From: Shinella lacus
Lineage (GTDB): Bacteria; Pseudomonadota; Alphaproteobacteria; Rhizobiales; Rhizobiaceae
Direction of reading: 5' to 3'
Assembly (NCBI RefSeq): GCF_010994755.1
Contig: NZ_WHSB02000013.1
Location: 62,001-126,000, forward strand
Length of the DNA: 64,000 bases
Shown here: positions 1 through 16,331 of the stretch, piece by piece
Layout: each line of letters begins with the position of its first letter
How positions within the stretch are numbered: position 1 is the stretch's first letter
Notes under the pieces: generated by a model
What the model was told of the DNA's origin: nothing
What the model saw: only the letters and a program-made list of their open reading frames with translations
Database searches by the model: none
Position numbers and translations under genes: made by a program

Positions 1-1
1 C

Positions 2-388
2 GATCTCAAGCTGACCGGCACGCATCTGGGCTGTGAGCATGGTGCCTGCGGTGCATGCACGGTTCGTGTCGAAGGTGAGGCGGTCCGCTCCTGCCTGATG
101 CTGGCTGTGCAGACCAACGGCAAGTCGGTCGCGACCGTCGAGGGCCTCGCCAAGGACGGTAAGCTGACGCCGATGCAGAACCAATTCTGGGAAAAACATG
201 GGCTGCAATGCGGCTTCTGTACCCCCGGCATCCTGATGACCATGACGGAGTTTCTCGAAGAGAACCCCGATCCGACGGAATCCGAGGTTCGCGATGCGCT
301 CTCGGGCAACATCTGCCGATGCACCGGCTATCAGGCGATCGTTGACGCGGTACTCGCGACGGCGGCTCAGGCGCGGGGAGAACAGTGA
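2..388 (+). CDS. Molybdenum hydroxylase 2Fe-2S subunit (CoxS-like), 5' partial
   Basis: Small iron-sulfur subunit of a xanthine dehydrogenase/CO dehydrogenase-family hydroxylase; it passes electrons from the molybdenum site to FAD. The frame is open from base 2, so the N-terminus lies outside the window. The plant-type cluster motif CEHGACGAC is at the very start. The second-cluster cysteines follow in LQCGFCTPG and NICRCTGY. The stop overlaps the start of the large subunit (TGATG), so the two are translationally coupled. Genes of this family often run medium-small-large, so an FAD (CoxM-like) subunit may lie just upstream; none is visible in the window. The substrate cannot be read from this subunit. 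Confidence 0.95.
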   Translation, partial: DLKLTGTHLGCEHGACGACTVRVEGEAVRSCLMLAVQTNGKSVATVEGLAKDGKLTPMQNQFWEKHGLQCGFCTPGILMTMTEFLEENPDPTESEVRDALSGNICRCTGYQAIVDAVLATAAQARGEQ

Positions 389-2730
389 TGCAGATGCGCT
401 CATTCGGACAGAGCATCAAGCGTAAGGAAGACCCGGCGTTTCTGACCGGCAAGGGGCGGTATGTCGATGACATCGAGTTGCCCAACATGGCGCATGCGGC
501 TTTCGTGCGAAGCCCCCTCGCGCACGCGAAAATCAAGTCGATCGACGCGAGTGCTGCACGTGCAATGGACGGCGTCATTGCTGTCATCACGTACCACGAA
601 CTGCCCGAAACATTGCGGCAGCGCCGCCTGCCGCTGGTCGTGCCGGTAGAATCACTCACCAATCCGCGGCTTCCGTACACTTTGGCACGTGATGAAGTCT
701 GTTATGTCGGCGAGGCCATTGCCATTGTCGTTGCGGAAAACCGCTACATCGCGGAGGACGCGGTTGCGCAGGTGATGGTCGACCTCGAACCTCTCGGCGT
801 GGTCGCCGACTGCCGGGCTGGGCTTCTGGAAGGAGCGCCCCGATCGCATCTTGGTGCAGACTCCAATATTGCGGCGACGATGCCGTCGGTGACGGGGGAC
901 ATAGACGCTGCCTTCTCCAACGCTCGCCATGTGTTCAAGGAGTCGATCTTCCAGCACCGCGGTGGCGCCTTCTTCATGGAATGCCGCGGTGCAATCGCCC
1001 ACTACGATCAGTTCAGCGAAAACCTGCTCGTCTATGTTTCATCGCAGGGCGTGCATCGCATCAAGCGGTCCTTCCACGAACTTTTCGATATTCAGGATTC
1101 CAAGCTGCGCATCGTAACGCCGGATGTCGGCGGCGGCTTCGGCCCGAAGGGTTCGTACTACGTGGAATATGGTGCCGTCGCTGCGGCCTCGATGGCAACC
1201 GGACGTCCGGTCAAATGGATCGAGGATCGCCGCGAGAATTTCGTCGCTACCCACCAGGAGCGTGACCAGTACTGGGACGTGGAGATCGCCGTCGACGAGA
1301 ACGCCAAGATTCTCGGTGTCCGTGGCACGCTCACCCATGACAACGGCGCCTACACGCCGTGGGGAATCGTGCTGCCGTGGATTTCGGTCGCAACCGTGCC
1401 CGGTCCCTACGTAATTCCCGCTTATGACATGACCCTCATTTCGGTGATCACCAACAAGGTGCCGACCACGCCGGTGCGGGGCGCGGGCCGGCCACAGGCT
1501 GTTTTCGTCATGGAGCGGCTTCTGGAGCGTGTCGCCAAGGAGCTTGGCCTCGATCCGGCCGAAGTGCGCCGACGCAACTTCATCAAACCGGAACAGATGC
1601 CCTACGATGTCGGGGTCATTTTTCGCGATGGTCGTCCAGTCGTCTATGATAGCGGGGACTATCCGAAATGCCAGGAGGTGGCGCTTGAGGCCATCAACTA
1701 CGAAGCCTTCGCGGAACGGCAGAAAGCGGCGCTCTCGGAAGGTCGGTATATCGGCATCGGTATCGGCAATGCCGTCGAGGCGACAGGCCTTGGACCCTAT
1801 GAGGGTGTAACAGTGCGCATTGGCACCAATGGCAATATCACTGCCTATACCGGTGCCACACCGCAAGGTCAGGCGCACAAGACGACGCTGGCACAGATTG
1901 TCGCCGACCATTTCGGCGTCTCGATCGATGCAGTGACGGTTGAGACGGGTGATACGTCGAACATCTCGTTTGGCATCGGCACTTTCGCGTCGCGCACGGC
2001 CGTCAATGCAGGTTCTTCAGCGCACCTCGCCGGTCAGGCGGTGGCAACCAAGGTGCGCGAGATCGCCGCGCAACTGCTTGAGGTCGAGCCCGACGATATC
2101 GAGCTGACCGACGGCGTGGCCCGGGTGAAGGGGCCGTCCAACCGGTTCAAGACGCTACGCGAACTTGCCGTCTATTCGCTGGGCAAACCCGGCTTCTCGC
2201 TCGCGCCCGGCATGACCCCGGGGCTGGAGAACACCGCCTATTTCACGCCCACGCAGTCCTCTTATGCCAACGGGACCAGCGTTGCGGAAGTCGAGGTGGA
2301 TGTCGAGACGGGCCGTGTTCACATCAACCGGCTCGTGATGTCCCACGACTGTGGCCGGGTGATCAATCCCATGGTGGTCGATGGGCAGGTCGTTGGTGGG
2401 GTTGCACACGGTGTTGGCAATGCGCTTTTCGAGCGCATGGTCCATGACGACCAAGCGCAGCCGCTGTCCACCAATTTCGGTGAGTACATGCTGCCGCTCG
2501 CGGCCGATGTTCCACGCGTCGAAATCCATCATCAGGAGACTGCGAGCCCCAACAATCCGCTTGGGGTCAAGGGGGCGGGCGAGGGGGGAACCATCCCTAC
2601 CATCGTAGCGATCGTCAACGCTGTAGCCAATGCACTGGCGCCCCTTGGCGTCCACATCGCCGAGGCGCCACTGTCGCCGCAACGCATCATCCAGTTGATC
2701 GACGAAGCAAAGGCAAGGAGCGTTGCATGA
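388..2730 (+). CDS. Molybdopterin-binding large subunit of xanthine dehydrogenase/CoxL family
   Basis: Catalytic molybdenum subunit of about 780 residues, a usual length for the family. An N-terminal a/b hammerhead region is followed by the Mo-cofactor domains. GGGFGPKG is near residue 248, the VRGAGR active-site segment near 363, and KGAGEGG with the family's catalytic Glu near 730. The segment reads VRGAGR rather than the AYRCSFR loop of true CO dehydrogenase, so this is a form II type hydroxylase of unknown substrate and not a proven CO oxidiser. ATG at 388 is preferred over GTG at 385; GGGGAG lies upstream. Its 3' end overlaps the IclR gene by 4 bases. The XdhC gene in the same cluster supports a functional, sulfurated Mo-enzyme. 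Confidence 0.95.
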   Translation: MQMRSFGQSIKRKEDPAFLTGKGRYVDDIELPNMAHAAFVRSPLAHAKIKSIDASAARAMDGVIAVITYHELPETLRQRRLPLVVPVESLTNPRLPYTLARDEVCYVGEAIAIVVAENRYIAEDAVAQVMVDLEPLGVVADCRAGLLEGAPRSHLGADSNIAATMPSVTGDIDAAFSNARHVFKESIFQHRGGAFFMECRGAIAHYDQFSENLLVYVSSQGVHRIKRSFHELFDIQDSKLRIVTPDVGGGFGPKGSYYVEYGAVAAASMATGRPVKWIEDRRENFVATHQERDQYWDVEIAVDENAKILGVRGTLTHDNGAYTPWGIVLPWISVATVPGPYVIPAYDMTLISVITNKVPTTPVRGAGRPQAVFVMERLLERVAKELGLDPAEVRRRNFIKPEQMPYDVGVIFRDGRPVVYDSGDYPKCQEVALEAINYEAFAERQKAALSEGRYIGIGIGNAVEATGLGPYEGVTVRIGTNGNITAYTGATPQGQAHKTTLAQIVADHFGVSIDAVTVETGDTSNISFGIGTFASRTAVNAGSSAHLAGQAVATKVREIAAQLLEVEPDDIELTDGVARVKGPSNRFKTLRELAVYSLGKPGFSLAPGMTPGLENTAYFTPTQSSYANGTSVAEVEVDVETGRVHINRLVMSHDCGRVINPMVVDGQVVGGVAHGVGNALFERMVHDDQAQPLSTNFGEYMLPLAADVPRVEIHHQETASPNNPLGVKGAGEGGTIPTIVAIVNAVANALAPLGVHIAEAPLSPQRIIQLIDEAKARSVA

Positions 2731-3533
2731 TGGCAGACGGAGGCGTTCCCATGAATTCGGCGAGCTATGCAGAGCGATTGGTCGCCGTCCTCAAGATCTT
2801 CGCCGAGGGGCCGGGCGTGCTCTCGATCAGCGAGATCAGCGAAGCCCTCAATCTCGCGCCGAGTTCGACGCACAGGCTCCTCGGGCCGCTGGTCGAACAG
2901 GGCTTGATCGATCGTGCCTCCAAGCGGCGCTATCGCGTGGGAACAGAACTCTTTCGTATCGCGGCCCTCGTTGAGACACGTTACAGCCTTCTGAATGTCG
3001 CCAAGCCGGTCGTGGCCAAAACGGCCGAGGAGAGCAAGGAGACCTGCCTTCTGGCGATCGTCACGCCGTCGCGCAGCCGTATCGTGCTGGCCCACAAAGT
3101 GGATTCCGCTTATCCGCTTCGCTTCAAGTTCGATCTGCTGATGAACATTTCGCCAATCTGGGGATCCCTCGGCCGCGCGGTGATGGCGTGGCTGGAGCCG
3201 GGCGAACTGCGTCGTGTTCTGTCCGAGGGAGGACCGTCCCCGCTGACCGGTGCGCCAATACCAAGTCACGACGCGCTTTCGGCTGAACTCGCCATGGTGC
3301 GGCGGCACGGCTATGCGCGCAGCGTCGGGCAGCGAGCCGCGCCCGACGCCATCGGAATTTCGACTCCGGTCTTCGATGCAACGGGAGTCGTCTGTGGCGC
3401 CCTCGGGATAGTCACCCCGGAGCATCGTATGACGCCCGAACTGGAGCGGCAGGTCATAAAACTTGTCCGCTCGAACGCTGCCAAACTCTCACACATGATG
3501 GGCCATTCCGGTCGCATGCTTGATGTGAGTTGA
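2727..3533 (+). CDS. IclR-family transcriptional regulator
   Basis: A 268-residue regulator with an N-terminal winged helix (residues about 10-70; ISEISEALNLAPSSTHRLL is the recognition region) and a C-terminal IclR effector-binding domain ending around the VIKLVRSNAAKLS helix. It starts inside the stop of the Mo-hydroxylase gene (ATGA), with AAGGAG upstream, so it is co-transcribed with the enzyme it probably controls. IclR proteins commonly regulate aromatic and organic acid catabolism. Repeats resembling the E. coli IclR half-site (GGAAAT/ATTTCC) near 11.7 and 13.0 kb are candidate targets; that link is inference. Confidence 0.93.
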   Translation: MMADGGVPMNSASYAERLVAVLKIFAEGPGVLSISEISEALNLAPSSTHRLLGPLVEQGLIDRASKRRYRVGTELFRIAALVETRYSLLNVAKPVVAKTAEESKETCLLAIVTPSRSRIVLAHKVDSAYPLRFKFDLLMNISPIWGSLGRAVMAWLEPGELRRVLSEGGPSPLTGAPIPSHDALSAELAMVRRHGYARSVGQRAAPDAIGISTPVFDATGVVCGALGIVTPEHRMTPELERQVIKLVRSNAAKLSHMMGHSGRMLDVS

Positions 3534-3557
3534 TCCATTTCATCTTTGGGAGGAAAC

Positions 3558-4595
3558 ATGATGAAGTATTCGAAGACAAGACGCATGCTTTTGGCGGGCG
3601 CGATCGCTTTCCTGGCGACGGCGCCGCGCCAGGCCCTCGCCCAGACCGTCGAGGAATTCTACAAAGGCAAGACAATCGATATGGTCATCGGCTACGCGCC
3701 GGGCGGCAGCAATGATGCCTATGCACGCGCCGTGGCCAATCACATTGGTAAGCACATTCCCGGCAATCCCCAGGTCATTCCGCTGAACATGCCCGGCGGC
3801 GGCAGTCTGCTTGCTGCAAATCACCTTGCCAACATTGCGCCCAAGGATGGCTCGGTTCTCGGTGTCGTCGCATCGACGATCCCGCTCGACGAGCAGCTGG
3901 GTTCAGAGAATATCCAGTTCAAGTCCGCCGATTTCAACTGGATCGGTCGTGTCGCCTCGAACACCAATGTGACGTTCGTCAACGCATCGACCAATGTGAA
4001 GACGGTCCAGGATGCCATGAACACGGAAACCATTCTGGCGGCGACGGGTGCAAGTTCGACCGTGGCGATCTATCCCTCGGTGATGAACACCATGGCCGGA
4101 ACGAAGTTCAAGCTCGTCATGGGCTATGAGGGGTCCGCCGAGGCCATGCTGGCCATGGAGCGTGGCGAGGTCGATGGACATTCGACGAGCCTTGCTGCCG
4201 TCATGACGTCCCACCCCGAATGGATGACAAGCGGCAAAGTCAACTTCCTCGTTCAGTACGGGCTGACCCGCCACGCGGAACTACCAAATGTGCCGACGGC
4301 GATCGAGTTGATCAAGGATCCGGCCGAACTCGCGGCAACCCGTTTGATCCTCGGCGGCGTAGAGGTTGGCAAGCCCGTGCTTACCACGCCCGGTGTGCCT
4401 GCAGATCGCGTGGAGGCGCTGCGCCGGGCTTTCGATGCCATGCTAAAGGACCCGGACTTCGTCAACGAACTCACGCAACAGCGGCTCGAGATTTCGCCGA
4501 TGTCGGGCGAGGAGCTCCAGAAAGTGGTTAGCGAAGCGGCCTCGGCCACGCCCGAACTGATCGCACGGGTCAAGGCCGTTTGGCCGAACCAGTAA
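3558..4595 (+). CDS. Tripartite tricarboxylate transporter-type (TctC/Bug) periplasmic binding protein
   Basis: Periplasmic solute receptor of about 345 residues. The signal peptide spans residues 1 to about 30 (MLLAGAIAFLATAPRQALAQ). The mature start is typical of the Bug family: GKTIDMVIGYAPGGSND, then NMPGGGS and PKDGSVLG. The ATG at 3558 follows GGGAGGA closely; a second ATG follows at 3561. No tctA or tctB membrane partner lies in this island, so the receptor is an orphan here. It is clearly paralogous to the receptor at 10566-11588: both share NHxGxHIPG, GTKFKLxMGYEGSA and MLAMERGE. Position next to the Mo-hydroxylase suggests it captures the pathway's carboxylate substrate. Confidence 0.92.
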   Translation: MMKYSKTRRMLLAGAIAFLATAPRQALAQTVEEFYKGKTIDMVIGYAPGGSNDAYARAVANHIGKHIPGNPQVIPLNMPGGGSLLAANHLANIAPKDGSVLGVVASTIPLDEQLGSENIQFKSADFNWIGRVASNTNVTFVNASTNVKTVQDAMNTETILAATGASSTVAIYPSVMNTMAGTKFKLVMGYEGSAEAMLAMERGEVDGHSTSLAAVMTSHPEWMTSGKVNFLVQYGLTRHAELPNVPTAIELIKDPAELAATRLILGGVEVGKPVLTTPGVPADRVEALRRAFDAMLKDPDFVNELTQQRLEISPMSGEELQKVVSEAASATPELIARVKAVWPNQ

Positions 4596-4603
4596 GCAGA
4601 GCT

Positions 4604-4629
4604 GACGTGCCGGCTTCTGCCGGCGCGTC
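4604..4629 (+). terminator. Intercistronic stem-loop after the binding-protein gene
   Basis: Arms GACG-t-GCCGGC and GCCGGC-g-CGTC flank a TTCT loop, giving 10 pairs around one mismatch. It lies 8 bases after the stop at 4595 and is not followed by a T-run. It is better read as a stabilising or partly terminating hairpin that lets the receptor be made in excess over the downstream enzymes. Confidence 0.6.
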
Positions 4630-4649: not shown

Positions 4650-5372
4650 ATGTTCGAGTTCGCTGTAGAATTTTCGCGAGAGGGCACCGTCGCGACGGTC
4701 GATCTCAACCGCCCGGACGAGGGTAATAAACTGACCCGTGACATGATGCGCCTGCTGACGCAGAAACTGCACGAGCTTGCGGGTCGGGAGCAGCTGAATA
4801 CCGTTATCCTGGCCGCGCACGGGCCGGCCTTTTGCCTCGGACGCGACGGCCGCGGTGAAACGCCGGGCGCACTCTCGGCCTACGATATGCGCGAACAGTC
4901 GATGGGGGCTGTACTCGATCTCTATGCTGCGATCCGGCGAGTTCCCGTCCCCGTCATTGCGAAGGTACATGGCGACGCGCTGGGGTTCGGTGCTGCGCTT
5001 GCTGGGGCCTGCGACATCACGCTTGCCGCAAGCGAAGCGAAATTCGCCTTCAGCGAGATTCACCACGGCATTCCCCCAACCATGGCCATGACCGCCGTCA
5101 TGCGGCATCTGTCGCCCAAAGCCCTGGCATGGCTCATCTATTCAGGCGAGACGATCTCCGCGACGCGTGCGGTCGATATCGGGCTTGCCAGCGCGATCCT
5201 GCCCCAGGACACCTTCGAAGAGAAAGCACAAACCTTCGTGGACGAACTGGCATCGCGCCCGCGTCGTAATCTCGCGACGATCAAGAAATATCAGAGTCTT
5301 TCCGCCAGCATGGCACCGGAGGCCGCTTCGGACTATGCCGGCGCGCTGCTGGCGCTTGTTAGGGCGAGCTGA
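4650..5372 (+). CDS. Enoyl-CoA hydratase/isomerase (crotonase) family protein
   Basis: Crotonase-fold protein of 240 residues, slightly shorter than the usual 255-265. Oxyanion-hole segments are recognisable: AAHGPAFCLGRDG near residues 52-64 and VHGDALGFGAALA near 107-119. FSEIHHGIPP near 133-142 sits where crotonases carry catalytic acids. The ATG is preceded by AGGGGAAAG. It may hydrate or cleave a CoA ester late in the pathway, but no CoA ligase is visible, so the substrate is open. It is followed after 5 bases by the alpha/beta hydrolase gene, indicating one transcript. Confidence 0.88.
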   Translation: MFEFAVEFSREGTVATVDLNRPDEGNKLTRDMMRLLTQKLHELAGREQLNTVILAAHGPAFCLGRDGRGETPGALSAYDMREQSMGAVLDLYAAIRRVPVPVIAKVHGDALGFGAALAGACDITLAASEAKFAFSEIHHGIPPTMAMTAVMRHLSPKALAWLIYSGETISATRAVDIGLASAILPQDTFEEKAQTFVDELASRPRRNLATIKKYQSLSASMAPEAASDYAGALLALVRAS

Positions 5373-5377
5373 GAACG

Positions 5378-6157
5378 ATGGTGCAGATCGTCACGCGCTC
5401 CGGATTGAGGCTGCATTACCAGACTCGCGGTGTTGGACCCGTCATCGTACTGCTGCACCCGGTCGGATTGCGCGCTGCCTTCTGGGATCCGGTAATCGAT
5501 GCGCTGTCGGACCGTTTTCGGCTGATCAGTCCCGACCTGCGCGGCCACGGCCAGAGCGATGTGCCAGCGACGGATTTCAGCCTTGAGGATATGGCGCGGG
5601 ACGTGATCGACCTCATCGAGACGGTCGGCACACCACCGGCAATTATTTGCGGATGTTCGCTTGGCGGCATGCTGGCCCAAGCGGTAACGATCGCGGCCCC
5701 GCAGATCGTACGAGGCATGGTGGTCATCAGCGCCGGACATAGCCGTGACGATGCCGGTCGGAAAGCGGTTCTCGCCCGGGCGAATGCAGCCATGGCTGGC
5801 ATGCCGGCTATCGTCGAGACGACGCTGGAACGCTGGTTCTCGGAAGATGCCAACCCGGCGACAGTGGCGACGGTTCGTGCTTGGCTTCTCGAAGATGACC
5901 CGGTTCTTCATTCGCGGTGCTGGCGGGCCATGGCCGGCCTCGATCATGCCGGCAGCCTCGGAACGATCCGGGTGCCCGCCCTGGCGATCGCGGCGACCGA
6001 TGACAAAAGTGTCTCGCCGTCCGTTATGCAGGATCTGGCAGCACGTATACCGGGCGCCGACTACAAGGAAATTGGCGGAGCGGGACACCTGTCCCCACTC
6101 GAACGGCCAAAAGACATTGCCGCGATCCTTGGCACTTTTGCCGAGGCGGTCGCATGA
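5378..6157 (+). CDS. Alpha/beta-fold hydrolase (enol-lactonase/deformylase-like)
   Basis: A 259-residue hydrolase. The HPVGLRAAFWDPV oxyanion region is near residue 27. The nucleophile elbow GCSLGG is near 90. A late acid and the catalytic His (GAGHLSPLERP) are near 235. The overall pattern resembles 3-oxoadipate enol-lactonases. NicD, the N-formylmaleamate deformylase of nicotinate breakdown, shares this fold, which matters because a NicX-like enzyme lies in the same island. It starts 5 bases after the crotonase gene and its stop overlaps a possible ATG of the UbiD gene. The substrate is not determined by sequence. Confidence 0.9.
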   Translation: MVQIVTRSGLRLHYQTRGVGPVIVLLHPVGLRAAFWDPVIDALSDRFRLISPDLRGHGQSDVPATDFSLEDMARDVIDLIETVGTPPAIICGCSLGGMLAQAVTIAAPQIVRGMVVISAGHSRDDAGRKAVLARANAAMAGMPAIVETTLERWFSEDANPATVATVRAWLLEDDPVLHSRCWRAMAGLDHAGSLGTIRVPALAIAATDDKSVSPSVMQDLAARIPGADYKEIGGAGHLSPLERPKDIAAILGTFAEAVA

Positions 6158-6186
6158 TTGAAACGAACACGTCCGCTGGAGGAACC

Positions 6187-7809
6187 ATGACCGTCCCTAG
6201 AACCCCGCCGCTCAATCTCAATGACCATCTTGACGCGCTCGATGCCGCGGGTCTGCTGGTGCGGGTCGACCGCCCCATCAACAAGGATACTGAACTTCAC
6301 CCGCTGGTGCGCTGGCAGTTCTTGGGTGGACTGGAGGAGAATGACCGCAAGGCATTCCTGTTCACCAACGTGGTGGATTCCAAAGGGCGCAAATACGACA
6401 TGCCGGTACTTCTTGGCGCATTGGCAGCCTCCCCGCGCATCTATGCCATGGGCATGGGCCGTCCGGTCGAGGAGATCGGTGACGCCTGGAACCACGCGAT
6501 TGCCAATCCGATTCCACCAAACCGGGTCACGGAGGCCCCGTGCCAGGCGGTCGTCATCCAAGGCGAGGCGTTGACGCGGCCAGATGGTGGCGTTGCGGCA
6601 TTGCCCGTGCCCGTTTCGACGCCGGGCTTCGATTCCGCACCCTATCTCACGGCGACCATGTGCATCACGCGCGATCCGGAAACCGGCGTCCAGAATGCTG
6701 GCATGTATCGCGCTGCTCTGAAAGCCCCGGACCGCATGGTCATTCGCATGGCGGCAAAGCCCGGCGGCGCCGGCGGATGGCTGCACTGGCTCAAGTATCG
6801 CGAGCGCGCAGAGAAGATGCCGATCGCCATCGCGCTCGGGGCAGCGCCCGTGGTCGTGTTCACCTCACCGCAAAAACTGCCCGTCGATGTCGATGAATTT
6901 TCCGTCGCCGGGGGTCTAGCAGGACAGGCGATCGACACTGTGAAATGCGTGTCCAACGACCTTGAAGTTCCGGCAGATGCCGAGATCGTCATCGAGGGAT
7001 ACATCGATACGTCCGTGCTTGAGCCGGAAGCCCCGTTCGGCGAAAGCAACGGCTATGTCGCCCTCGAGGGCTACAACATGCCCATGATCGTGACGGCCAT
7101 CACGCACAAGCGGAAGGCGATCTTCAACGCCATCATCAGCCAGGTGACCCCATCGGAATCGAGCGTCATAAAGAAGGTCGCCTACGAACCGCTGTTCCTG
7201 CACCATCTGTCCAAGCAACTGTCGATCAAGGGTATCAAGAAGGTCGTGTTGCACGAGCGGTTGACCAATCTTCGCCCGGTCATCTTCCTTCAATATGCCT
7301 ATGGAACACCGCGCAGCGAGGTCTGGCGTGGGCTCTACGCCGCGTCTTCCTTCATGGGTAGCGTCGGCAAGATCGTCATCGCGATCAGTGAGGACATCGA
7401 CCCCAATTCAGTCGACGCTATCTTGTGGTCGATGGCCTACCGATCGACCCCCTCCGAGGACGTGCTGATCACGCCTAACAGAGGCGGTGTGCAGGGTGCG
7501 CAATATGGCCCCTCGAACACCGATTCCGGCCTGTTGATCGACGCGACGCAGAAGCGCCCGCTGCCGCCTCTCGCCTTGCCCAAGAAGGAATTCATGGAAA
7601 ACGCCAAGGCGATCTGGGAGGAATTGGGGCTGCCGGCCATCAAGGCGGAATCGCCCTGGCACGGCTACACGCTGGGCGACTGGACCGAGCGCTGGGAAAC
7701 CTTGGCGCAGCGCGCCACCGCAAGCGATTGGCAGCTCAACGGCGACGACACCTTGCCGCGGCAGCATTCGGGCAAGGGTCCCGAAGATTCTGCGCGCAAT
7801 CTCGAGTAA
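6187..7809 (+). CDS. UbiD-family (prenyl-FMN-dependent) decarboxylase
   Basis: Family of non-oxidative decarboxylases/carboxylases for aromatic, heteroaromatic and alpha,beta-unsaturated carboxylates that use prenylated FMN. This copy is about 540 residues. The conserved EAPFGESNGYV segment near residue 280 supplies the acidic residues of the family's catalytic network; PLVRWQF and SSFMGSVGKIVIA regions are also present. ATG at 6187 is preferred because CTGGAGGA sits directly before it; an ATG at 6154 overlapping the previous stop would add 11 residues. No UbiX flavin prenyltransferase gene is seen in the window, so the cofactor must be made elsewhere. Context predicts a ring-carboxylate substrate. 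Confidence 0.93.
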   Translation: MTVPRTPPLNLNDHLDALDAAGLLVRVDRPINKDTELHPLVRWQFLGGLEENDRKAFLFTNVVDSKGRKYDMPVLLGALAASPRIYAMGMGRPVEEIGDAWNHAIANPIPPNRVTEAPCQAVVIQGEALTRPDGGVAALPVPVSTPGFDSAPYLTATMCITRDPETGVQNAGMYRAALKAPDRMVIRMAAKPGGAGGWLHWLKYRERAEKMPIAIALGAAPVVVFTSPQKLPVDVDEFSVAGGLAGQAIDTVKCVSNDLEVPADAEIVIEGYIDTSVLEPEAPFGESNGYVALEGYNMPMIVTAITHKRKAIFNAIISQVTPSESSVIKKVAYEPLFLHHLSKQLSIKGIKKVVLHERLTNLRPVIFLQYAYGTPRSEVWRGLYAASSFMGSVGKIVIAISEDIDPNSVDAILWSMAYRSTPSEDVLITPNRGGVQGAQYGPSNTDSGLLIDATQKRPLPPLALPKKEFMENAKAIWEELGLPAIKAESPWHGYTLGDWTERWETLAQRATASDWQLNGDDTLPRQHSGKGPEDSARNLE

Positions 7810-8864: not shown

Positions 8865-9955
8865 TGGTGGGATCGGCATCGAAAACGGCGATGTGGGCCG
8901 GCTTCGGCCTTGCGATCCTGATCGGTACGGCCGGAGGAGCAGTCTTCGCCTATATCCGCTTTCCTCTCCCCTGGATGCTCGGAGCGATGTGTGCCTGCAC
9001 GGCCGCAACGCTGCTCCGCCTGCCAGTGCGGCCCGTCGCGGCGGTTCGCCCGTTCATGACGGCGATCATTGGAGTTTTGCTTGGAGCGAGCTTCTCGCCC
9101 GAACAACTCGCCAGCCTCACGGGCTGGGTGCCTACGTTACTCGGTCTTGTTGGCTATGTGCTGGTGTGCGCTGTTCTGGTAACGCCCTACTTCCGTCTGG
9201 TCGCGGGCATGGACCTGCCGACCGCCTTCTTCTCCGCCATGCCCGGCGGCGTCATTGAAATGATGCTTGTCGGCGAAGAGAAAGGCGGTGACGGCAGAAC
9301 GATTGCGCTGGTGCATTCTGCGCGCATCCTCTTCGTCGTGGCCGCGGTGCCACTGATTATCGCGTTTCTCGCGGATGTGACAATTGTGACCGGAGCGAGT
9401 GCAACTCGCCTGTCGATTGCTGAGACATCCATAATGAGCGAGTTGTTGCTAGCAGGTTGTGTCGTGGTCGGCATGGTCGCCGGACGAATCCTGAAACTGC
9501 CGGCGCGATACCTTCTTGGACCGATGCTTATCTCCGCCGCGGTGCATATGACGGGCGCTACGGATTTCCAGCCGGCGGCCGAGGTGATTATTCTCGCGCA
9601 GGTGGTTCTCGGAACGCTCATCGGGTGCCGCTTCGCCGGCGTACCGCCGAAACGCATCGGTGTCATCCTGTTGGTCAGCGCCGGATCTGTGACGATCATG
9701 CTCGCCATTGCGCTGTTCTTCGCCATGGGGCTCGCTGTTGTCTCCCCTTACGGCTTGGAGGCGATCCTTCTGGCCTACTCTCCTGGCGGCCTCAACGAAA
9801 TGAGTCTTGTCGCACTCGCTATGGATCTCGAAGTGGCATTCGTCTCCGGCCACCATATCGTTCGCGTGATCCTGGTTGTCGCTCTGGCGCAGCTCCTGTT
9901 TCGCGGTGCCATCAGATTAGCTCCGCGCAAAACGAGTGATGATAGTGACGCGTGA
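8864..9955 (+). CDS. AbrB-family integral membrane protein
   Basis: A 363-residue hydrophobic protein with about ten membrane segments arranged as two similar halves. RFPLPWMLGAM near the start and ILKLPARYLLGPM in the middle mark the duplicated AbrB repeat; a PGGVIEMM/PGGLNEMS pair is the second repeated motif. Older records label such proteins 'ammonia monooxygenase', which is unsupported. They are thought to be regulatory or transport membrane proteins. It is translationally coupled to XdhC (TGATG). It could export or import a pathway compound, or work with the orphan binding proteins; both are speculation. Confidence 0.88.
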   Translation: MVGSASKTAMWAGFGLAILIGTAGGAVFAYIRFPLPWMLGAMCACTAATLLRLPVRPVAAVRPFMTAIIGVLLGASFSPEQLASLTGWVPTLLGLVGYVLVCAVLVTPYFRLVAGMDLPTAFFSAMPGGVIEMMLVGEEKGGDGRTIALVHSARILFVVAAVPLIIAFLADVTIVTGASATRLSIAETSIMSELLLAGCVVVGMVAGRILKLPARYLLGPMLISAAVHMTGATDFQPAAEVIILAQVVLGTLIGCRFAGVPPKRIGVILLVSAGSVTIMLAIALFFAMGLAVVSPYGLEAILLAYSPGGLNEMSLVALAMDLEVAFVSGHHIVRVILVVALAQLLFRGAIRLAPRKTSDDSDA

Positions 9956-9970: not shown

Positions 9971-10456
9971 TTAGATTGCATCGACGAGAGTTTCTATGGC
10001 ATGCGCGAGCAGCTCGCTCTGGCCCGGCGAGAAATGCTCCAGAACGAGGAGGACGGCCGCCGCGGCGCGTTGGCGCGTATCGGATGTTTTTGATAGCGAT
10101 GCAGCCGCTGGTATGGCTTCAAGTGTGTCGAGTTCGATATGTTCCGCGTCGAGTTCAGCAGCTTTGACACGGTCGCGCAGCTTTTCGGTCGCCTTGTCCG
10201 GTGCCGGTGCCGGACCTGATTTCAATCGGCGGCGGATGGCTCGCAGCGGCAGAACGACCTCTTCGCGCCAGGCAGCCACGTGCGCATCAGCGGCCTCGAT
10301 GTCGCCTTGCTCGAGGGTCTCTTCCCGGATTACCGTCCGCCAGAGGGCATGAATCAGGACATTGACGTCGACATTGCCCCGATCCTGGAGCTCGAGGCAG
10401 GCCATTGCAACGCCTTCTCGGCGGTAGAAATCGAGGGCAAAGTCCCAAAGTCGCAC
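9971..10456 (-). CDS. TIGR02444/DUF2390 family protein
   Basis: A 161-residue soluble protein starting at a GTG preceded on the minus strand by GGAGGACG. The N-terminal LWDFALDFYRREGV and CLELQDRGNVDVNVLI segments match the TIGR02444 family, whose function is unknown. It faces the AbrB gene with only 15 bases between stops and lies downstream of the second binding-protein gene. It looks like a passenger or a chromosomal-type gene inside the island. Nothing in it suggests a catabolic role. Confidence 0.75.
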   Translation of the reverse strand: MRLWDFALDFYRREGVAMACLELQDRGNVDVNVLIHALWRTVIREETLEQGDIEAADAHVAAWREEVVLPLRAIRRRLKSGPAPAPDKATEKLRDRVKAAELDAEHIELDTLEAIPAAASLSKTSDTRQRAAAAVLLVLEHFSPGQSELLAHAIETLVDAI

Positions 10457-10565: not shown

Positions 10566-11588
10566 CTATTCGCCATAAACCGCCTTCGCCTTGGCGAGAA
10601 GTGCGGGATCGATCTTGTCGAAGCGCGCAATCATCTCCTGCAAGTCCTCGCCGGACATCGGATTGACCGTCGCACCGATCGCAGCCGCATCCTTCAGGAA
10701 AGCCGGGTCCTTGACCATGGCATCGAAGGCACGGCGCAGGATTTCAAGCCGGTCGTTCGGAATGCCGGGCGTCGTGAAATAGTACTTTCCGATGTCATTG
10801 GAACTCATGATCAGTTCCATGACAGGCCGGTTCTCTTCCGATGCGAGCTCGACGGAGGTCGGAACATCGGGCAGCACCGGATCGCGCTTCAGCGCGTGCT
10901 GCACAAGAATGCGGACCGTTCCCTCCTTGAACCAGGTGGGATTGGCAGCCATCAGGGCTTCGAATGTCGTGGAGTGCCCTTCGGCTTCTCCGCGTTCCAT
11001 GGCCAGCATACCGGCTGCGGAGCCCTCATAGCCCATGATGAGCTTGAATTTGGTGCCGAGGAACTGGTTCATCGCGCGCGGATACAGCGAAATCGACGAA
11101 CCCACATTGGTCGCCGAGAGGATCACTTCTTCCTTCATCGCCTGCTGTATGTCTTTGACGTCGCTCGTGTTCCACACCATGGTCACGCTGGTCGACGGCT
11201 GGACGCGGCCGATAAAGTTGAAGCCCGACATTTCGAACTCGACATTGTCGATCATCTTGGATTGCAGCGGCACGGCCTGCGAGACAATGCCGATCACCGT
11301 GCCATCTTGTGGCGACGTGTTGTAGAGCTGGTTGGCCGCCGCCAGGCCCCCGGCACCGGGCAGATTGATCGGCACGATCGTCGGTTTACCCGGAATGTGG
11401 TCGCCCAGATGGTTGGAGACGACGCGGGACAGGAGATCGTTTCCGCCACCGGGCGCGAAACCGATGACCAGTTCGATGGTCTTGCCTGCGTAGAAATCTT
11501 CCTGCGCGAGAACGGGTTGAGCGGCAACGAGGGCAGTGAGTACGACGGCGCCGCGCGCCAGCCAATGCATGGCGGTCTGTCTCAACAT
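10566..11588 (-). CDS. Second TctC/Bug-type periplasmic binding protein
   Basis: Receptor of 340 residues. The signal peptide (MHWLARGAVVLTALVAAQPVLAQ) ends near residue 29, followed by GKTIELVIGFAPGGGND and INLPGAGG. It is a paralogue of the receptor at 3558-4595, with long shared blocks (GTKFKLIMGYEGSA, MLAMERGE, LRRAFDAM, PMSGEDLQ). The start at 11588 is preceded by AGGAAAG. It has its own promoter region containing an AATTCCG-N5-CGGAAAT inverted repeat. No membrane partner genes lie in the island. The two receptors may bind related substrates, or substrate and intermediate. Confidence 0.92.
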   Translation of the reverse strand: MLRQTAMHWLARGAVVLTALVAAQPVLAQEDFYAGKTIELVIGFAPGGGNDLLSRVVSNHLGDHIPGKPTIVPINLPGAGGLAAANQLYNTSPQDGTVIGIVSQAVPLQSKMIDNVEFEMSGFNFIGRVQPSTSVTMVWNTSDVKDIQQAMKEEVILSATNVGSSISLYPRAMNQFLGTKFKLIMGYEGSAAGMLAMERGEAEGHSTTFEALMAANPTWFKEGTVRILVQHALKRDPVLPDVPTSVELASEENRPVMELIMSSNDIGKYYFTTPGIPNDRLEILRRAFDAMVKDPAFLKDAAAIGATVNPMSGEDLQEMIARFDKIDPALLAKAKAVYGE

Positions 11589-11703: not shown

Positions 11704-11819
11704 CGATAGGATTTTGCAATATTGTCTTGTTTTTATTGATATATATTTCACCAAATACGGGCGCGCTTCGACGGCGCGGGTCACGCGGAGCCGCGCGGAA
11801 GTTTCTTGGCTTATGGTCC

Positions 11820-12875
11820 TTAGCCCAAGGGGCCGTCGATCGGACGTAGGAAGCGTCCGTTTTCGATCCGTTTGTCTCCGTCGACATAAAGCGTTGGTTC
11901 GAGGATCACCCCGTCCATGTGAATGTTCGACAGCAGGGTTCCACCCACATCGACATTGGTGCCGAGCCCGAAATGCATGGTGCCCAGGATGTTCTTGTCT
12001 TCGCGCTGGACGCCGCGGATCTGGGCCTTCGAGTTGATCCCCACCGACGCCTCCGCTGGGCAGACATAGGCATTCTCGTCACCATACTGCTCAAGATAGT
12101 TGCGTAGGAAATGCGCGTCTGCGCCGCCGTCGATCTCGACGATACGCCCGTGCTCGACCGTAAGCTCGATCGGGCTGGATATCCGGCCGATCTGGTGCAT
12201 GCACAGATCGATGACCAGTTTGCCGCTGCCGCTGTATTCGACCGGCGGAATGTTGAATTCGCCATTGGGATAGAGGAACCGCAGCATGTTGGACTTGCGG
12301 TTCTGAACTTTGGAGACGTTCTGGATCTTGTAGGCAACGAAGTCGTCGCCCGGCATATTCGGGATAAAAATGCGGTTTTCGACCGAATAGGTGAAGTCGC
12401 AGCCATATTTGGAGGTAACCCTGCAATGCCTGGCGTCTTTACCGAAGATGTTGGTAGCGACCCAATATTGCCGGATCGCCATTTCCTTCTGGTCCTCCGT
12501 AACTGCGCCGGACTGAAACATTTCCAGCGTCATGCCGCCATCCATGCAGATGACCGGAACACCAGCATCCATCGCGACCGCGTTTGCATGAGCGTGCAGC
12601 ATGCCGGTCGATGCCAACAGGATGTTGAGGTCCGAATGCAGCATCGCTTCACAGACTGTCTTGGGCGGATCGTAGTAGTCGGCCGGTCGTGGATCAAACA
12701 GCGCCAATGTGCCGTCTGCGCCGAGTTCGCTGACAATGCTCATGACAGCCTGCCAGACCCTTGGATCATGCGCCGTATCGGTCACGATGAGCACGTTCAT
12801 GCCTGGCGTGATGTTGGCCACCAGGGGGCGACGTAGATAATCAAGCGTACCCGTCATGAGACCGTGCCGCGGCAT
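11820..12875 (-). CDS. NicX/M29 aminopeptidase-like metalloenzyme, possible ring-cleaving dioxygenase
   Basis: A 351-residue protein of the superfamily that holds M29 aminopeptidases and NicX, the iron-dependent 2,5-dihydroxypyridine 5,6-dioxygenase of about 350 residues. The C-terminal metal-site pattern is present: PAEASVG near 273, GTMHFGLG near 298, and NIHMDG with an H-x-D pair at about 319 and 321. The start at 12875 follows GAGGAGG. The open frame continues further upstream but would run through the divergent decarboxylase gene, so the short start is right. Length and HxD position favour a NicX-like ring opener over a peptidase, and the aromatic-catabolic neighbours agree. Peptidase activity cannot be excluded. 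Confidence 0.75.
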   Translation of the reverse strand: MPRHGLMTGTLDYLRRPLVANITPGMNVLIVTDTAHDPRVWQAVMSIVSELGADGTLALFDPRPADYYDPPKTVCEAMLHSDLNILLASTGMLHAHANAVAMDAGVPVICMDGGMTLEMFQSGAVTEDQKEMAIRQYWVATNIFGKDARHCRVTSKYGCDFTYSVENRIFIPNMPGDDFVAYKIQNVSKVQNRKSNMLRFLYPNGEFNIPPVEYSGSGKLVIDLCMHQIGRISSPIELTVEHGRIVEIDGGADAHFLRNYLEQYGDENAYVCPAEASVGINSKAQIRGVQREDKNILGTMHFGLGTNVDVGGTLLSNIHMDGVILEPTLYVDGDKRIENGRFLRPIDGPLG

Positions 12876-12993
12876 GCAATCCTCCTCAATGCTATTCCTT
12901 CCGTCTTTCGCGTTGCGTCTATATTTCCGACGCGCTTGACGGCGATTGAAGTATTTGTATAGCTTAGAAGAAATTTTATGGATTAAAAATAAG

Positions 12994-13057
12994 TAATTCC
13001 ACGTAACGGAATTTCCCACGAAATAATAATCAAAAATTCTATTTGGCGGAATTTCCA
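12994..13057. promoter_or_regulatory. Divergent promoter region with repeated GGAATTTCC sites
   Basis: The AT-rich 210-base gap between the NicX-like and thiamine-diphosphate enzyme genes holds GGAATTTCC at 13008-13016 and again at 13048-13056, exactly 40 bases apart. AATTCC at 12995-13000 forms an inverted repeat with GGAATT at 13008-13013. The sites resemble IclR-family half-sites and match the inverted repeat near 11.69 kb, so one regulator probably controls all three promoters. The IclR gene at 2727 is the obvious candidate. Confidence 0.55.
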
Positions 13058-13085
13058 AGTGCATTGACAACCGGAGGAGGAAGAG

Positions 13086-14864
13086 TTGGACAAATTTGAT
13101 CGCCCCATTGGGTTGGAGACACCCTCGACGCTTGATTGGAAGAGTGACATCGCCGCGGAGATGTTGCGAAGGCTCGATATCCCCTATGTCGCCCTCAATC
13201 CCGGCGCCAGCTATCGCGGTTTCCACGACAGCCTCGTCAACTACCTCGGTAACCGTTCGCCGCAAATGCTGCTGTGCCTGCACGAAGACCACGTCATTTC
13301 GATCGCGCATGGTTATGCGAAGGTCACCGACAAGCCGATGGGCGCTGTGCTCCATTCCAATGTCGGGCTGTTGCATGGCCTGATGGGCATCTTCAATGCT
13401 TGGGGCGGGCGAGCGCCGATGATCGTGGTCGGTGCGACCGGTCCTGTCGAGCCGGAAAAGCGGCGCCCCTATATCGACTGGATCCACACCTCCAAGGATC
13501 AGGGCGGATTGCTGCGCAACTATGTGAAGTGGGATGATGAACCACGTTCTGCGGACGGCATTGTCGAGGCATTCCTGCGCGGCCACCAGATCACCGCGTC
13601 TACGCCGCGTGGCCCAGTCTACATCTGCTTGGACGCTGGCTTGCAGGAGGACCCGGCCCCTGAACACTTCCATATTCCGACAGCCGAGCGCTATCAGCCG
13701 ATTTCGCCAGCTTGTGCCACGCAACGCGATATCGACGCTGTGGCCGACCTTGTCCGGGCGGCCCGAAATCCCCTGTTCCTGTTTGGCCGTGGCTCGGTCG
13801 ATCAGGGCGACTGGGATCGCAGGGTGGCGCTGGTCGAGGCCGCCGGTGCCTATGTGATGACGTCGACCCGCGGCAAGGCGGTCTTTCCGACCGACCATCC
13901 TCGCCATGCTGCCCCACCGCTCACCTGGCTTGATGCCGACGCCAAACCGATCGTCGAGGCAGCAGATCTCATCGTTTCGTTCGACTGGGTTGATCTCAAC
14001 GGCCTGCTGCGGCAGGTCAATCGCAAATCCGACCAGCTTGAAGCCAGGATCGTGCATGTGACGCAAGATCGCTCACTCCACAATGGCTGGGACATGGGGT
14101 ATTTCGGCCTGCCACCGGCCGATTTCCCCATCGATGCCAATCCTGATGCCTTCGTCGCACAACTCCTTGTTAGCCTGAACGGGCGGGATAAGGGTATTTC
14201 GACCTGGACCGGCATAGCGCGCATCGATCCGGGGCCGGTCGAGTTCAACGTCAATAGCGACCGGGAAATTATCCCATTCGACCTGGAAGTAGCGGTCAAA
14301 AAGATCGCCGAGAGCCGTAAGGTTACACTCGCCAACAACAATATCGGTTGGTCGACGCGCGCCTTCATGATCCGTGGACCGCTTGACTTCATGGGGCATA
14401 ACGGCGGCGGCGGCATCGGCGCCGGCCCGGGGCTGACGGTCGGCGTAGCGTTGGCACTGCTTGGCAGCGACCGCACAGTGGTTGGTGTCATGGGCGACGG
14501 CGATTTTCTCCAGGGCGTCACGGCGCTTTGGACCGCCGCGCATTACCAGATCCCAGCGCTATTCATCGTGGCCAACAATCGTTCGAACTACAACGACGAG
14601 ATCCATCAGGCTGCCATGGCCAAAGACCGCGGGCGCCCGCCAGAGAACCGCTGGATCGGACAACAGATCGACAATCCGGCTCTCGATCTGGCCGGCATGG
14701 CGCGCGCGCAAGGTGTCGAAGCAGAAGGCCCGGTCGAGAATGTCAACGACCTGATGGCGGCGATCGAACGTGGGCTGGCCGTGGTCGATGCCGGACGGCC
14801 ATATCTGATCGATGCGCATATCGCCCTCGGATACACCAAGAAGATCGTGACCCGTGGGCATTAG
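13086..14864 (+). CDS. Thiamine-diphosphate-dependent 2-oxo acid decarboxylase-like enzyme
   Basis: A 592-residue enzyme of the acetolactate synthase/benzoylformate decarboxylase group with three domains. The N-terminal pyrimidine-binding domain carries the cofactor-activating Glu in CLHEDH near residue 65. The C-terminal domain has the ThDP motif GDGDF near 468, with the matching NNRSNYN near 497. The start is a TTG directly after GGAGGAGGAAG; no better start is seen. The gene is followed 9 bases later by an aldehyde dehydrogenase. This suggests a 2-oxo acid to aldehyde to carboxylate sequence, like MdlC-MdlD of mandelate breakdown. Residues alone do not fix the substrate. Confidence 0.88.
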   Translation: MDKFDRPIGLETPSTLDWKSDIAAEMLRRLDIPYVALNPGASYRGFHDSLVNYLGNRSPQMLLCLHEDHVISIAHGYAKVTDKPMGAVLHSNVGLLHGLMGIFNAWGGRAPMIVVGATGPVEPEKRRPYIDWIHTSKDQGGLLRNYVKWDDEPRSADGIVEAFLRGHQITASTPRGPVYICLDAGLQEDPAPEHFHIPTAERYQPISPACATQRDIDAVADLVRAARNPLFLFGRGSVDQGDWDRRVALVEAAGAYVMTSTRGKAVFPTDHPRHAAPPLTWLDADAKPIVEAADLIVSFDWVDLNGLLRQVNRKSDQLEARIVHVTQDRSLHNGWDMGYFGLPPADFPIDANPDAFVAQLLVSLNGRDKGISTWTGIARIDPGPVEFNVNSDREIIPFDLEVAVKKIAESRKVTLANNNIGWSTRAFMIRGPLDFMGHNGGGGIGAGPGLTVGVALALLGSDRTVVGVMGDGDFLQGVTALWTAAHYQIPALFIVANNRSNYNDEIHQAAMAKDRGRPPENRWIGQQIDNPALDLAGMARAQGVEAEGPVENVNDLMAAIERGLAVVDAGRPYLIDAHIALGYTKKIVTRGH

Positions 14865-14873
14865 GAGGCAGTG

Positions 14874-16331
14874 ATGAGCAGAACAATACAGTCGGTCCTT
14901 CCCGCAAATCGCGATCTCTATTATGGCGGCCGCTGGCACGCTCCCAATGGCGGCTATACGGATGTGTTCAACCCGTCGACCGGTGAGAGCCTAGGCCCGG
15001 TTGCGCAGGCCGATATCAGCGATGTTGAAACGGCGATCGCTGCGGCTCGCTCGGGTTTCGAAGACTGGCAGGGAACGCTACCGAAGACGCGCTCGTCCTT
15101 ATTGCGTGAGATTGCGGCTGTCATTCGGAAGAATGCCGAGGAGCTCGCCCTTCTCGATGCGGCCAACTGTGGCAATCCTGTCACCGCACTGTTGCGCGAT
15201 GCCGAAAACGCCGCCACAAAGCTCGACTATTTTGCCGGCGTGGCGCTTGAAGCCAAAGGCAGCACGATCCCCGCTGGCCAGGACATGATGTGCATGACAG
15301 TGCGCGAACCCTGGGGTGTCTGCCTCCGGATCGGCGCTTTCAACCACCCGCTCTCCTTTGCCGGCGGCAAGCTCGGCGCGCCGTTGGCAGCTGGAAACAG
15401 CGTGATCATGAAGCCTTCGCCGCAGGCCCCGCTCTCCGCTCTGCGGTTGGCGGAATTGATCGACGGTATTGCGCCACCGGGTGTCATCAACTTCATGACC
15501 TGTGGGCTTGAATCCACCCAGGCGCTGGTCACGCACCGCGATGTCGCCATGGTGTCGATTGTCGGTAGCATCGCCACTGGAAAAGCGGTTGCGAAGGCCT
15601 GCGCCGACCGACTGAAACCGATGATCTGTGAGCTCTCGGGCAAGAACGCGTTGATCGTCTATGCCGATGCCGATATCGGCCGCACCGTCGAGGGTGCGGT
15701 ACGGGGCATGAACTTCACCTGGTGCGGCCAGTCCTGTGGTTCGACATCGCGGCTCTTCGTCCACGCAGATATCCACGATGCTGTCGTTGAGGGCATCATC
15801 GCCGCGACGCGACGCTTTAAGCCCGGCCTTGCCACAGACCCGGCAACGAATATGGGCGCCATCATCTCCAAGGCGCAGTACGAGAAGATCATGGGTTACA
15901 TTGAGCTCGGCAAGCAGCAGGGCGCGACGCTCCGGCTGGGTGGCGCGCGCCCGACGTTGCCCGACCTTGCCAATGGTTACTTCATCGAGCCTACGATCTT
16001 TACCGATGTCACGCCCGACATGGCGATCGCGCACGAAGAGATCTTCGGGCCAGTCCTCGCCGTGATCAAATGGACTGACGAGGCGGACATGATGCGCCAT
16101 GTCAACAGTGTCGACTACGGGCTCACCGCGGCGATTTACACAACGAATGTCACCACGGCCCATCGCGCGGCCCGGCAGGTCCAGTCCGGCTTCGTGTGGG
16201 TCAACGACACGTCATCCCATTACATCGGCGCACCGTTCGGCGGCTACAAGCTTTCCGGCGTGGGGCGTGAAGAATCGATCGAGGAACTGCTGGAATTCAC
16301 CCAGATGAAGACGATCAAAATTGCGCTTTGA
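14874..16331 (+). CDS. NAD(P)-dependent aldehyde dehydrogenase
   Basis: A 485-residue member of the ALDH superfamily. The catalytic Cys lies in GQSCGS near residue 290, the general-base Glu in ELSGKNALIVYADAD near 255, and EEIFGPVL near 390. The C-terminal FGGYKLSGVGREESIEEL is typical of betaine/aromatic aldehyde dehydrogenases. ATG at 14874 follows AGGAGG; a GTG just before it is in frame but less likely. It is coupled to the thiamine-diphosphate enzyme and probably oxidises its aldehyde product. The 168 bases after its stop contain no gene. Confidence 0.94.
   Translation: MSRTIQSVLPANRDLYYGGRWHAPNGGYTDVFNPSTGESLGPVAQADISDVETAIAAARSGFEDWQGTLPKTRSSLLREIAAVIRKNAEELALLDAANCGNPVTALLRDAENAATKLDYFAGVALEAKGSTIPAGQDMMCMTVREPWGVCLRIGAFNHPLSFAGGKLGAPLAAGNSVIMKPSPQAPLSALRLAELIDGIAPPGVINFMTCGLESTQALVTHRDVAMVSIVGSIATGKAVAKACADRLKPMICELSGKNALIVYADADIGRTVEGAVRGMNFTWCGQSCGSTSRLFVHADIHDAVVEGIIAATRRFKPGLATDPATNMGAIISKAQYEKIMGYIELGKQQGATLRLGGARPTLPDLANGYFIEPTIFTDVTPDMAIAHEEIFGPVLAVIKWTDEADMMRHVNSVDYGLTAAIYTTNVTTAHRAARQVQSGFVWVNDTSSHYIGAPFGGYKLSGVGREESIEELLEFTQMKTIKIAL

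Follow-up and report, generated by a model that had tools for sequence, protein, structure and literature searches.

A patchily inherited island of UbiD, molybdenum hydroxylase, and NicX-like genes in Shinella lacus that may break down a heteroaromatic carboxylate

The hmf cluster serves the degradation of 2,5-furandicarboxylate and 2-furoate, and Table 2 of one report lists for it hmfABC, hmfD, hmfE, hmfF, psfC (cofactor synthesis for HmfF), a putative ring hydrolase, psfD (a molybdenum [Mo]-enzyme accessory), and the dehydrogenases psfG and psfA (PMC12064950). True nic clusters unite a flavin monooxygenase, an alpha/beta hydrolase (ABH), and NicX, whose iron ligands are given as His265, Ser302, His318, and Asp320, with activity lost when any of them is changed to alanine (PMC7910607). 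Here we analyze a 64,000-nucleotide stretch of Shinella lacus DNA (the window; bases 62001 to 126000 of contig C6 in a 7.04-Mb genome), which holds part of an island with genes for a UbiD decarboxylase, a Mo hydroxylase, a NicX-like metalloenzyme, and a thiamine diphosphate (ThDP) enzyme paired with an aldehyde dehydrogenase (ALDH). The initial annotation knew of no described cluster with this combination. That was too strong, since the hmf cluster has most of it (PMC12064950), as does a plasmid locus of C. oxalaticus (L125) that reads UbiD-UbiX-TctC-MoL-FAD-FeS-AMP-binding-crotonase and that, by gene content and order, we take to be hmf. Among the open-access literature matches listed, none describes a published cluster with the gene content of the island.

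Uptake and degradation of an aromatic acid, or of one with nitrogen or oxygen in its ring, is the most likely role of the island, whose first half resembles furan-degradation genes. The early proposal of a ring-carboxylate catabolic cluster is supported. Our tentative reading, at a probability of about 0.42, is that the island has spread laterally and serves the catabolism of a heteroaromatic carboxylate or dicarboxylate, following an hmf-like logic without the coenzyme A (CoA) ligase. All genes named at the outset were recovered by open reading frame (ORF) listing and Pfam/NCBIfam family scans (Table 1), yet that inventory was incomplete. The window edge splits the island, and the contig continues upstream of base 1 with, moving away from the window, the first 94 bases of CoxS, a CoxM-type FAD subunit, an IclR regulator, CoxG, a fused TctA-TctB permease, a CMD-family protein, and UbiX; the two IclR genes, the two TctC genes, AbrB, and DUF2390 had also gone unmentioned. 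Counterparts of the HmfF, HmfG, and HmfABC families are all present, UbiX and CoxM lying just upstream of the window.

The gene set goes beyond chance because it recurs whole in Pelagibacterium lacus and for the most part in genome G211. A scan of named genomes with UbiD yielded 29 loci. The co-occurrence set comprised 46 regions, that of the window and 45 others, with no pair sharing more than 1 kb at ≥97% identity; one P. lacus record (L048) was dropped from this set as identical to another (G242; 20735/20735 bases). In P. lacus, TctAB through the NicX-like gene keep their order, and the other flank carries ALDH (87% identity), ThDP (90%), the second TctC (84%), DUF2390 (49%), UbiX (88%), and CMD (75%); the complete set lies within 33 kb at 69 to 90% identity, DUF2390 excepted. 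A 19.9-kb stretch of G211 holds CoxG, IclR, CoxMSL, IclR, crotonase, TctAB, TctC, ABH, UbiD, and NicX-like genes, the last three contiguous. A distance of 4.0 kb separates UbiD from the NicX-like gene in the window and one of 2.3 kb in P. lacus, and in G211 the two are adjacent, so that the neighborhood search proposed at the outset places them within 4 kb of each other in three lineages. They are coupled but not inseparable: five of eight NicX-like orthologues have no UbiD beside them in the flanks read.

UbiD at ≥50% identity is carried by 40 of the 45 other regions. By tblastn, within the stretch read per locus, these 40 include a CoxL-family gene in 26 cases (matches near 30% may be other Mo enzymes), a crotonase or ABH in 23, UbiX in 16, ThDP in 13, an AMP ligase in 2, and a NicX-like gene in 2. 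The eight closest (≥66%) include CoxL in six, a crotonase or ABH in seven, a NicX-like gene in two, and an AMP ligase in none; in all such counts, absences are weak evidence where contigs are short, and neither related plasmids nor contigs from a single bin count as independent cases. Beyond the genome of the window, UbiD at an E value of ≤1e−120 was found in at least 6 of 396 genomes of the order and in none of 198 genomes of the family; the candidates scored per genome were capped (at up to three in one of the scans), and both tallies are lower bounds. The island is inherited patchily. Along the window, GC content shows no sharp break, with a dip to 0.57 to 0.58 at 10 to 14 kb.

It is quite unlikely that unrelated modules (a Mo/UbiD operon, a NicX-like unit, and a ThDP/ALDH unit) merely stand side by side. 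The strands differ, the gene order of P. lacus is different, the orthologues without UbiD in the flanks read come from five genomes (G063, G106, G070, G172, and G960), and ThDP/ALDH pairs occur beside Rieske proteins elsewhere, all of which would suit separate modules. Yet in P. lacus everything except DUF2390 keeps its high identity within a single 33-kb stretch, ThDP matches recur in 13 of the 40 UbiD loci, and in G211 the NicX-like gene directly follows UbiD.

Four UbiD genes are encoded in the genome of the window. The initial annotation had named placement of its UbiD among the ubiquinone-synthesis enzymes as a result that would count against it; we reject that identity, as the window copy is 29% identical to Escherichia coli UbiD, versus 52% for another copy on contig C15, which we take as the ubiquinone-synthesis UbiD. 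A 16-sequence profile puts 6h6x and 6h6v first among the solved relatives (223 and 217 bits), ahead of E. coli UbiD (186 bits) and HudA (113 bits); according to the fold search, 6h6v is HmfF from Pelotomaculum thermopropionicum. The Glu-Arg-Glu network is intact (R186, E292, and E297), its residues presumably having the roles they have in Fdc1. We had matched N299 to HudA N318 and dropped this assignment, for the alignment with HmfF puts the position shared by HudA N318 and HmfF H297 at Ser336. Overall, the window UbiD is close to HmfF and yet no HmfF orthologue.

Other UbiD loci show features of their own. Two or more UbiD genes of the window-type family lie near one Mo enzyme in L051, L055, L056, L069, and L070, and in Limnohabitans (L055) they are followed by genes for a Rieske oxygenase and a class II aldolase. 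A xanthine/uracil-type permease is found at two UbiD/Mo loci (L050, 7696 to 9075; L060, 3 to 494), which hints at an N-heterocyclic substrate in that branch. In Ensifer canadensis (L127, 9295 to 13939), UbiD-UbiX follow a dihydroorotase-family gene and a Zn-dependent hydrolase, possibly a route for a pyrimidine- or hydantoin-type carboxylate.

For the Mo hydroxylase, the best solved relatives of the CoxL-type large subunit are 6-hydroxypseudooxynicotine dehydrogenase (463 bits), CoxL (457 bits), and quinoline 2-oxidoreductase (448 bits). A carbon monoxide dehydrogenase (CODH) identity was rejected: the CSFR motif of the CODH large subunit is missing, and RGAGR stands at position 365. The best PDB relative of the ABH is the enol-lactonase 2xua, and its identity to the NicD-type protein of Azospirillum is 24%.

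What is seen directly is the gene content with its families, the recurrent set, an intact UbiD triad, and a region with no CoA ligase match; we infer the substrate class, the order of steps, the ring-opening enzyme, and every single reaction of the following route. The tripartite tricarboxylate transporter would import the substrate. Should this bear a glyoxylyl group as a side chain, the ThDP/ALDH pair would convert it to a ring carboxylate. UbiD, with prenylated flavin mononucleotide (prFMN) from UbiX, would then take a carboxyl group off the ring. The Mo hydroxylase, matured by XdhC and CoxG, would next hydroxylate the ring with water to give a lactone- or lactam-like tautomer. Ring opening would fall to the PcaD-like hydrolase, helped by the crotonase, the NicX-superfamily metalloenzyme, or both, and would yield 2-oxoglutarate from a furan or pyrrole acid. 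This hmf-like route is backed because HmfF is the nearest solved UbiD by profile, the hmf parts match, and the ABH is nearest to an enol-lactonase. It is also backed by the recurrence of the set, whole in P. lacus and as a core in G211, by the gene counts at the 40 further UbiD loci, and by the solved relatives of the Mo large subunit.

Several observations weigh against it. A single-sequence search puts E. coli UbiD first, with 154 bits versus 141 for HmfF, and in the fold search HmfF (6h6v) and E. coli UbiD are level (E values of 2.3e−38 and 2.4e−38; pLDDT of the UbiD model, 76.3). The position of HmfF His297, named as the key residue for furan specificity (PMC7976604), is Ser336 in the window UbiD and Ser in 16/16 aligned family members. 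The NCBIfam scan ranks the Mo large subunit closest to a CODH model (CODH_aero_grp5, 796 bits), though below the cut-off of 950. While CoxS and UbiX are 60% and 52% identical to the C. oxalaticus hmf-type proteins, identity is low for CoxL (34%), UbiD (29%), and the hmfE-type crotonase (25%), with CoxM at 34%. Furthermore, a crotonase without a CoA ligase nearby is odd: tblastn with the C. oxalaticus HmfD-type ligase found none in the 38-kb region, nor was one found in the P. lacus or G211 stretch, the search being limited to locus stretches rather than whole genomes. Finally, genes like NicC and NicE by the P. lacus island point to pyridines.

A true CoA-dependent furoate pathway, its ligase encoded elsewhere in the genome, is improbable. 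The crotonase, CoxMSL, UbiD, UbiX, XdhC, and ALDH all have hmf counterparts by family; nonetheless, the ligase has no match in these three stretches and only two in the 40 wider UbiD loci, and the UbiD lacks His297.

The ThDP enzyme has benzoylformate decarboxylases as its best solved relatives (115 bits) and remains below curated cut-offs (NF005485, 153 bits; cut-off, 493). A related ThDP/ALDH pair lies in Thioclava beside an alpha-hydroxy acid oxidase, a Rieske protein, and pca genes, and another in Sulfitobacter beside a Rieske protein; at UbiD locus L070, an FMN-dependent dehydrogenase is found between TctAB and ThDP. The pair may thus be a feeder module that turns an arylglyoxylate into a carboxylate, a part of the hmf-like reading that is backed because of the hydroxy acid oxidase beside the Thioclava pair and the dehydrogenase beside the L070 ThDP gene.

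The NicX-like protein falls below every Pfam/NCBIfam cut-off. Aligned by hhalign with four NicX-group proteins, it matches over 306 columns (probability, 99.4; E value, 7e−22), and its HxD site is H319-x-D321. The early description of a NicX-like metalloenzyme stands as to homology over its length and the HxD site, although NicX-type chemistry is unproven, with two of the four iron ligands replaced: in 8/8 orthologues, of which G106 and G070 are near-identical, NicX His265 becomes Glu275 and Ser302 becomes Gly303, while His301 appears and H319 and D321 are kept. E206, E275, H301, H319, D321, and L93-H94 (at the place of NicX L104-H105) are invariant in the seven orthologues aligned. By contrast, all four ligands are kept in the four NicX-group proteins, two of which are annotated as "leucyl aminopeptidase." In a tree of 25 proteins, the NicX-like clade (100/100) is apart from NicX (100/98), with several long and unsure branches outside both. 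The NicX-like proteins form a clade sister to NicX, and their metal site probably differs.

This protein was not placed among peptidases, a placement that had been named as adverse to the initial proposal, though the tree leaves it outside the NicX clade too. The M29 peptidase model reaches 13.5 bits (cut-off, 27), and hhalign with an M29 alignment, itself of low diversity, is not significant. A MAFFT alignment has E206, E275, H301, H319, and D321 coincide with the five metal-ligand positions of M29 peptidases, but hhalign does not support this alignment. Since hhalign matched NicX and not M29, we soften the reading of a plain M29-type hydrolase; the protein may be either a hydrolase or an oxygenase. 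An AlphaFold model made from two sequences (pLDDT, 37.7) was not used. Besides the window, close orthologues (≥65%) occur in 4/198 genomes of the order sample, 1/384 of the class sample, and 0/348 of the phylum sample, which overlap; P. lacus and G211 are additional. The orthologue in G172 has an ABH and an arylformamidase-like protein as neighbors, and this genome holds a UbiD locus on another contig; in G063, the neighbors are CMD and ABH genes.

Among more distant relatives, the proteins annotated as "leucyl aminopeptidase" in Peribacillus (L107, 1117 to 2157) and Paracoccus yeei (L108, 1096 to 2127) keep the NicX iron ligands and group with NicX, and their annotation is probably wrong; the P. 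yeei gene lies near isochorismatase and Asp/Glu racemase genes. Distantly NicX-like "aminopeptidases" are also encoded on haloarchaeal plasmids (L086, L103, L109, and L110), where genes of the PrpF, MmgE/PrpD, DUF1177/AroM, or enolase type lie nearby.

The strongest rival explanation is a pyridine route, a sharpened form of the initial proposal. Here the Mo enzyme would hydroxylate a pyridine (di)carboxylate, UbiD would decarboxylate it, and a monooxygenase of the NicC type, which the window cluster lacks, might come next; the hydroxylated ring would then be opened with O2 by the NicX-like enzyme before the ABH acts. We consider this route somewhat unlikely. In its favor, the homology to NicX preserves the equivalents of H318, D320, and L104-H105, and H301 could complete a 2-His-1-carboxylate site. 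At the P. lacus locus (L089, G242:C85, 12974 to 14303), an ABC-transporter-like stretch follows the NicX-like gene, and 4.4 kb past that gene come a NicC homologue (61%) and, truncated where the contig ends, the beginning of a NicE homologue (77% over 35 residues). The closest NicX-type genes elsewhere in that assembly are only 28 to 29% identical to Caballeronia NicX. In G960, a NicC-like monooxygenase gene (40%) directly precedes the NicX-like gene, with a short-chain dehydrogenase/reductase and a PrpD-like protein nearby. True nic clusters combine a flavin monooxygenase with an ABH and NicX. Because NicC and NicE homologues were found near the P. lacus island, we weighted the pyridine route up and the hmf-like reading down.

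On the other hand, the residues at the positions of His265 and Ser302, each reported as essential in NicX (PMC7910607), are Glu and Gly in all eight orthologues, and the nic genes of P. lacus may have their own NicX beyond the contig break. Six of the eight closest other UbiD loci have no NicX-like gene in the stretch read. In the genome of the window, no closer NicX was found; the best NicC-like gene (36%) has an internal stop in frame and lies on another contig, as do the NicE-like genes (29 to 32%). The pyridine link would thus be favored in P. lacus and G960 and not in the window itself. The maleamate and maleate genes initially called lacking are so in part: NicE (two query proteins) has no match in the 64-kb window, and NicF has one, an isochorismatase-like stretch (30% over 132 residues; 37979 to 38374) 21 kb from the cluster. 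A plain nic operon in the window is rejected on these grounds.

DUF2390 tends to accompany UbiX and UbiD in one class. In an order sample of 150 genomes, 13 copies occur in 10 genomes, and by tblastn 10 of the 13 are within about 7 kb of UbiX or UbiD (the exceptions being G097, G050, and G017). All three copies in the genome of the window have a UbiD other than the ubiquinone one close by, and no DUF2390 match was obtained around the C15 (ubiquinone) UbiD. A phylum sample gave 27 copies, 4 of them already in the order test; of the 23 new ones, 5/5 alphaproteobacterial copies are near UbiX and 0/18 others are near UbiX or UbiD, although the query did not re-detect DUF2390 itself in 5 of these 18, and two stretches were shortened to about 11 kb. 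The totals are 15/18 in Alphaproteobacteria and 0/18 in other Proteobacteria (copies: window, G000:C16:13101, G000:C16:35272, L141 to L152, and L154 to L176). As the association is class-specific, a universal role is unlikely, and DUF2390 is a candidate partner of the prFMN system in this class. None of the literature matches listed ties DUF2390/TIGR02444 to UbiD by title or abstract. A paper on LpdD raises the question of how different UbiD enzymes obtain active prenylated flavin (PMC10865409), for which the association with UbiX offers a concrete candidate.

We regard as doubtful, but worth stating, a more far-reaching proposal: an undescribed CoA-free pathway for heteroaromatic (di)carboxylates in which the ring is opened through the action of UbiD, the Mo hydroxylase, and a NicX-superfamily metalloenzyme with exchanged ligands, which may be a hydrolase and no dioxygenase, while DUF2390 would serve the prenylated-flavin system of UbiX and UbiD in Alphaproteobacteria as a new accessory, either chaperone or maturase. 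Should the hmf-like or the pyridine reading prove right, the island would add either a furan-type pathway that needs no CoA ligase or a way into pyridine breakdown by means of UbiD; it would also define a sister family of NicX whose metal site differs, and UbiD enzymes would be on offer for heteroaromatic (de)carboxylation.

Table 1. Island genes within the window
Feature	Coordinates	Strand	Basis or remark
2Fe-2S small subunit of Mo hydroxylase, CoxS-type	1..388	+	Starts 94 bases before window; complete ORF in L005; NCBIfam small-subunit families, below curated cut-offs
Mo large subunit, CoxL-type	385..2730	+	Pfam MoCoBD_1/2, Ald_Xan_dh_C above cut-off
IclR-family regulator, second of two (first just upstream of window)	2727..3533	+	NCBIfam BhcR/KdgR/PcaR families, below cut-off
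TctC-type binding protein, tripartite tricarboxylate transporter	3558..4595	+	PF03401, 67.5 bits (cut-off, 27)
Crotonase-family protein	4650..5372	+	PF00378, 124 bits; NCBIfam families shown all below cut-off
ABH, PcaD (3-oxoadipate enol-lactonase)-like	5378..6157	+	TIGR02427, 186 bits (cut-off, 255.85)
UbiD-family prFMN decarboxylase	6154..7809	+	Family scans, structure-relative searches; R186, E292, E297 kept
XdhC-type maturation factor for Mo enzyme	about 7860..8864	+	Start uncertain; Pfam XdhC_CoxI, XdhC_C above cut-off
AbrB-family membrane protein	8864..9955	+	PF05145, 253 bits; TIGR03082 above cut-off
DUF2390/TIGR02444 protein, candidate UbiX/UbiD partner	9971..10456	-	Family scans, neighborhood counts
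Second TctC-type binding protein	10566..11588	-	PF03401
NicX-superfamily metalloenzyme (NicX-like)	11820..12875	-	351 residues; start at 12875 behind AGGAGG
ThDP-dependent decarboxylase, benzoylformate-decarboxylase-like	13086..14864	+	Family scans, PDB relatives
ALDH, partner of ThDP enzyme	14871..16331	+	PF00171, 487 bits; adjoins ThDP in P. lacus too

Beyond UbiX, the upstream contig (L005, 5119 to 11002) encodes a QuiC-like protein (xylose isomerase-like and HPPD-type domains), a shikimate dehydrogenase, and a TRAP transporter. These genes are a unit separate from the island; the first two have no matches in the 33-kb P. lacus stretch.

Compared with known systems, the island shares with the hmf cluster, as tabulated, UbiD, UbiX, a three-subunit Mo oxidase, an XdhC-type factor, HmfE, an aldehyde dehydrogenase, and a putative ring hydrolase (PMC12064950), and with the C. 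oxalaticus hmf-type locus a TctC gene and a crotonase. It differs from hmf in that no HmfD ligase was detected in the region and in Ser336 in place of His297, and it adds the NicX-superfamily enzyme, the ThDP enzyme, and DUF2390. With the nic clusters of Caballeronia (L105) and Azospirillum (L106), in which we assigned the NicC, NicE, NicD, NicX, and NicF types from annotated products, the window has in common a NicX-superfamily enzyme, an ABH, and a Mo enzyme, whereas NicC and NicE homologues adjoin the island in P. lacus alone; unlike these clusters, the window has no NicE-like match or nearby NicF-like gene, two of the four NicX iron ligands are replaced, and UbiD and UbiX are present. A mandelate/benzoylformate module resembles the window in its adjacent ThDP enzyme and ALDH, the former with benzoylformate decarboxylases as its best PDB relatives, but no hydroxy acid oxidase was recognized in the window cluster, and the part acting on the ring is different. 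Certain loci of Rhizobiaceae (N. petrolearium, S. meliloti LMB1, and S. fredii NGR234 and SMH12) comprise CoxL, UbiD, a second CoxL, UbiX, DUF2390, TctC, ThDP, and TctAB, a parts list almost as in the window; nevertheless, their UbiD is 57% and their CoxL about 34% identical, and the NicX-like protein has no match there. Overall, the island is a coherent, conserved, and testable variant, close in kind to described pathways.

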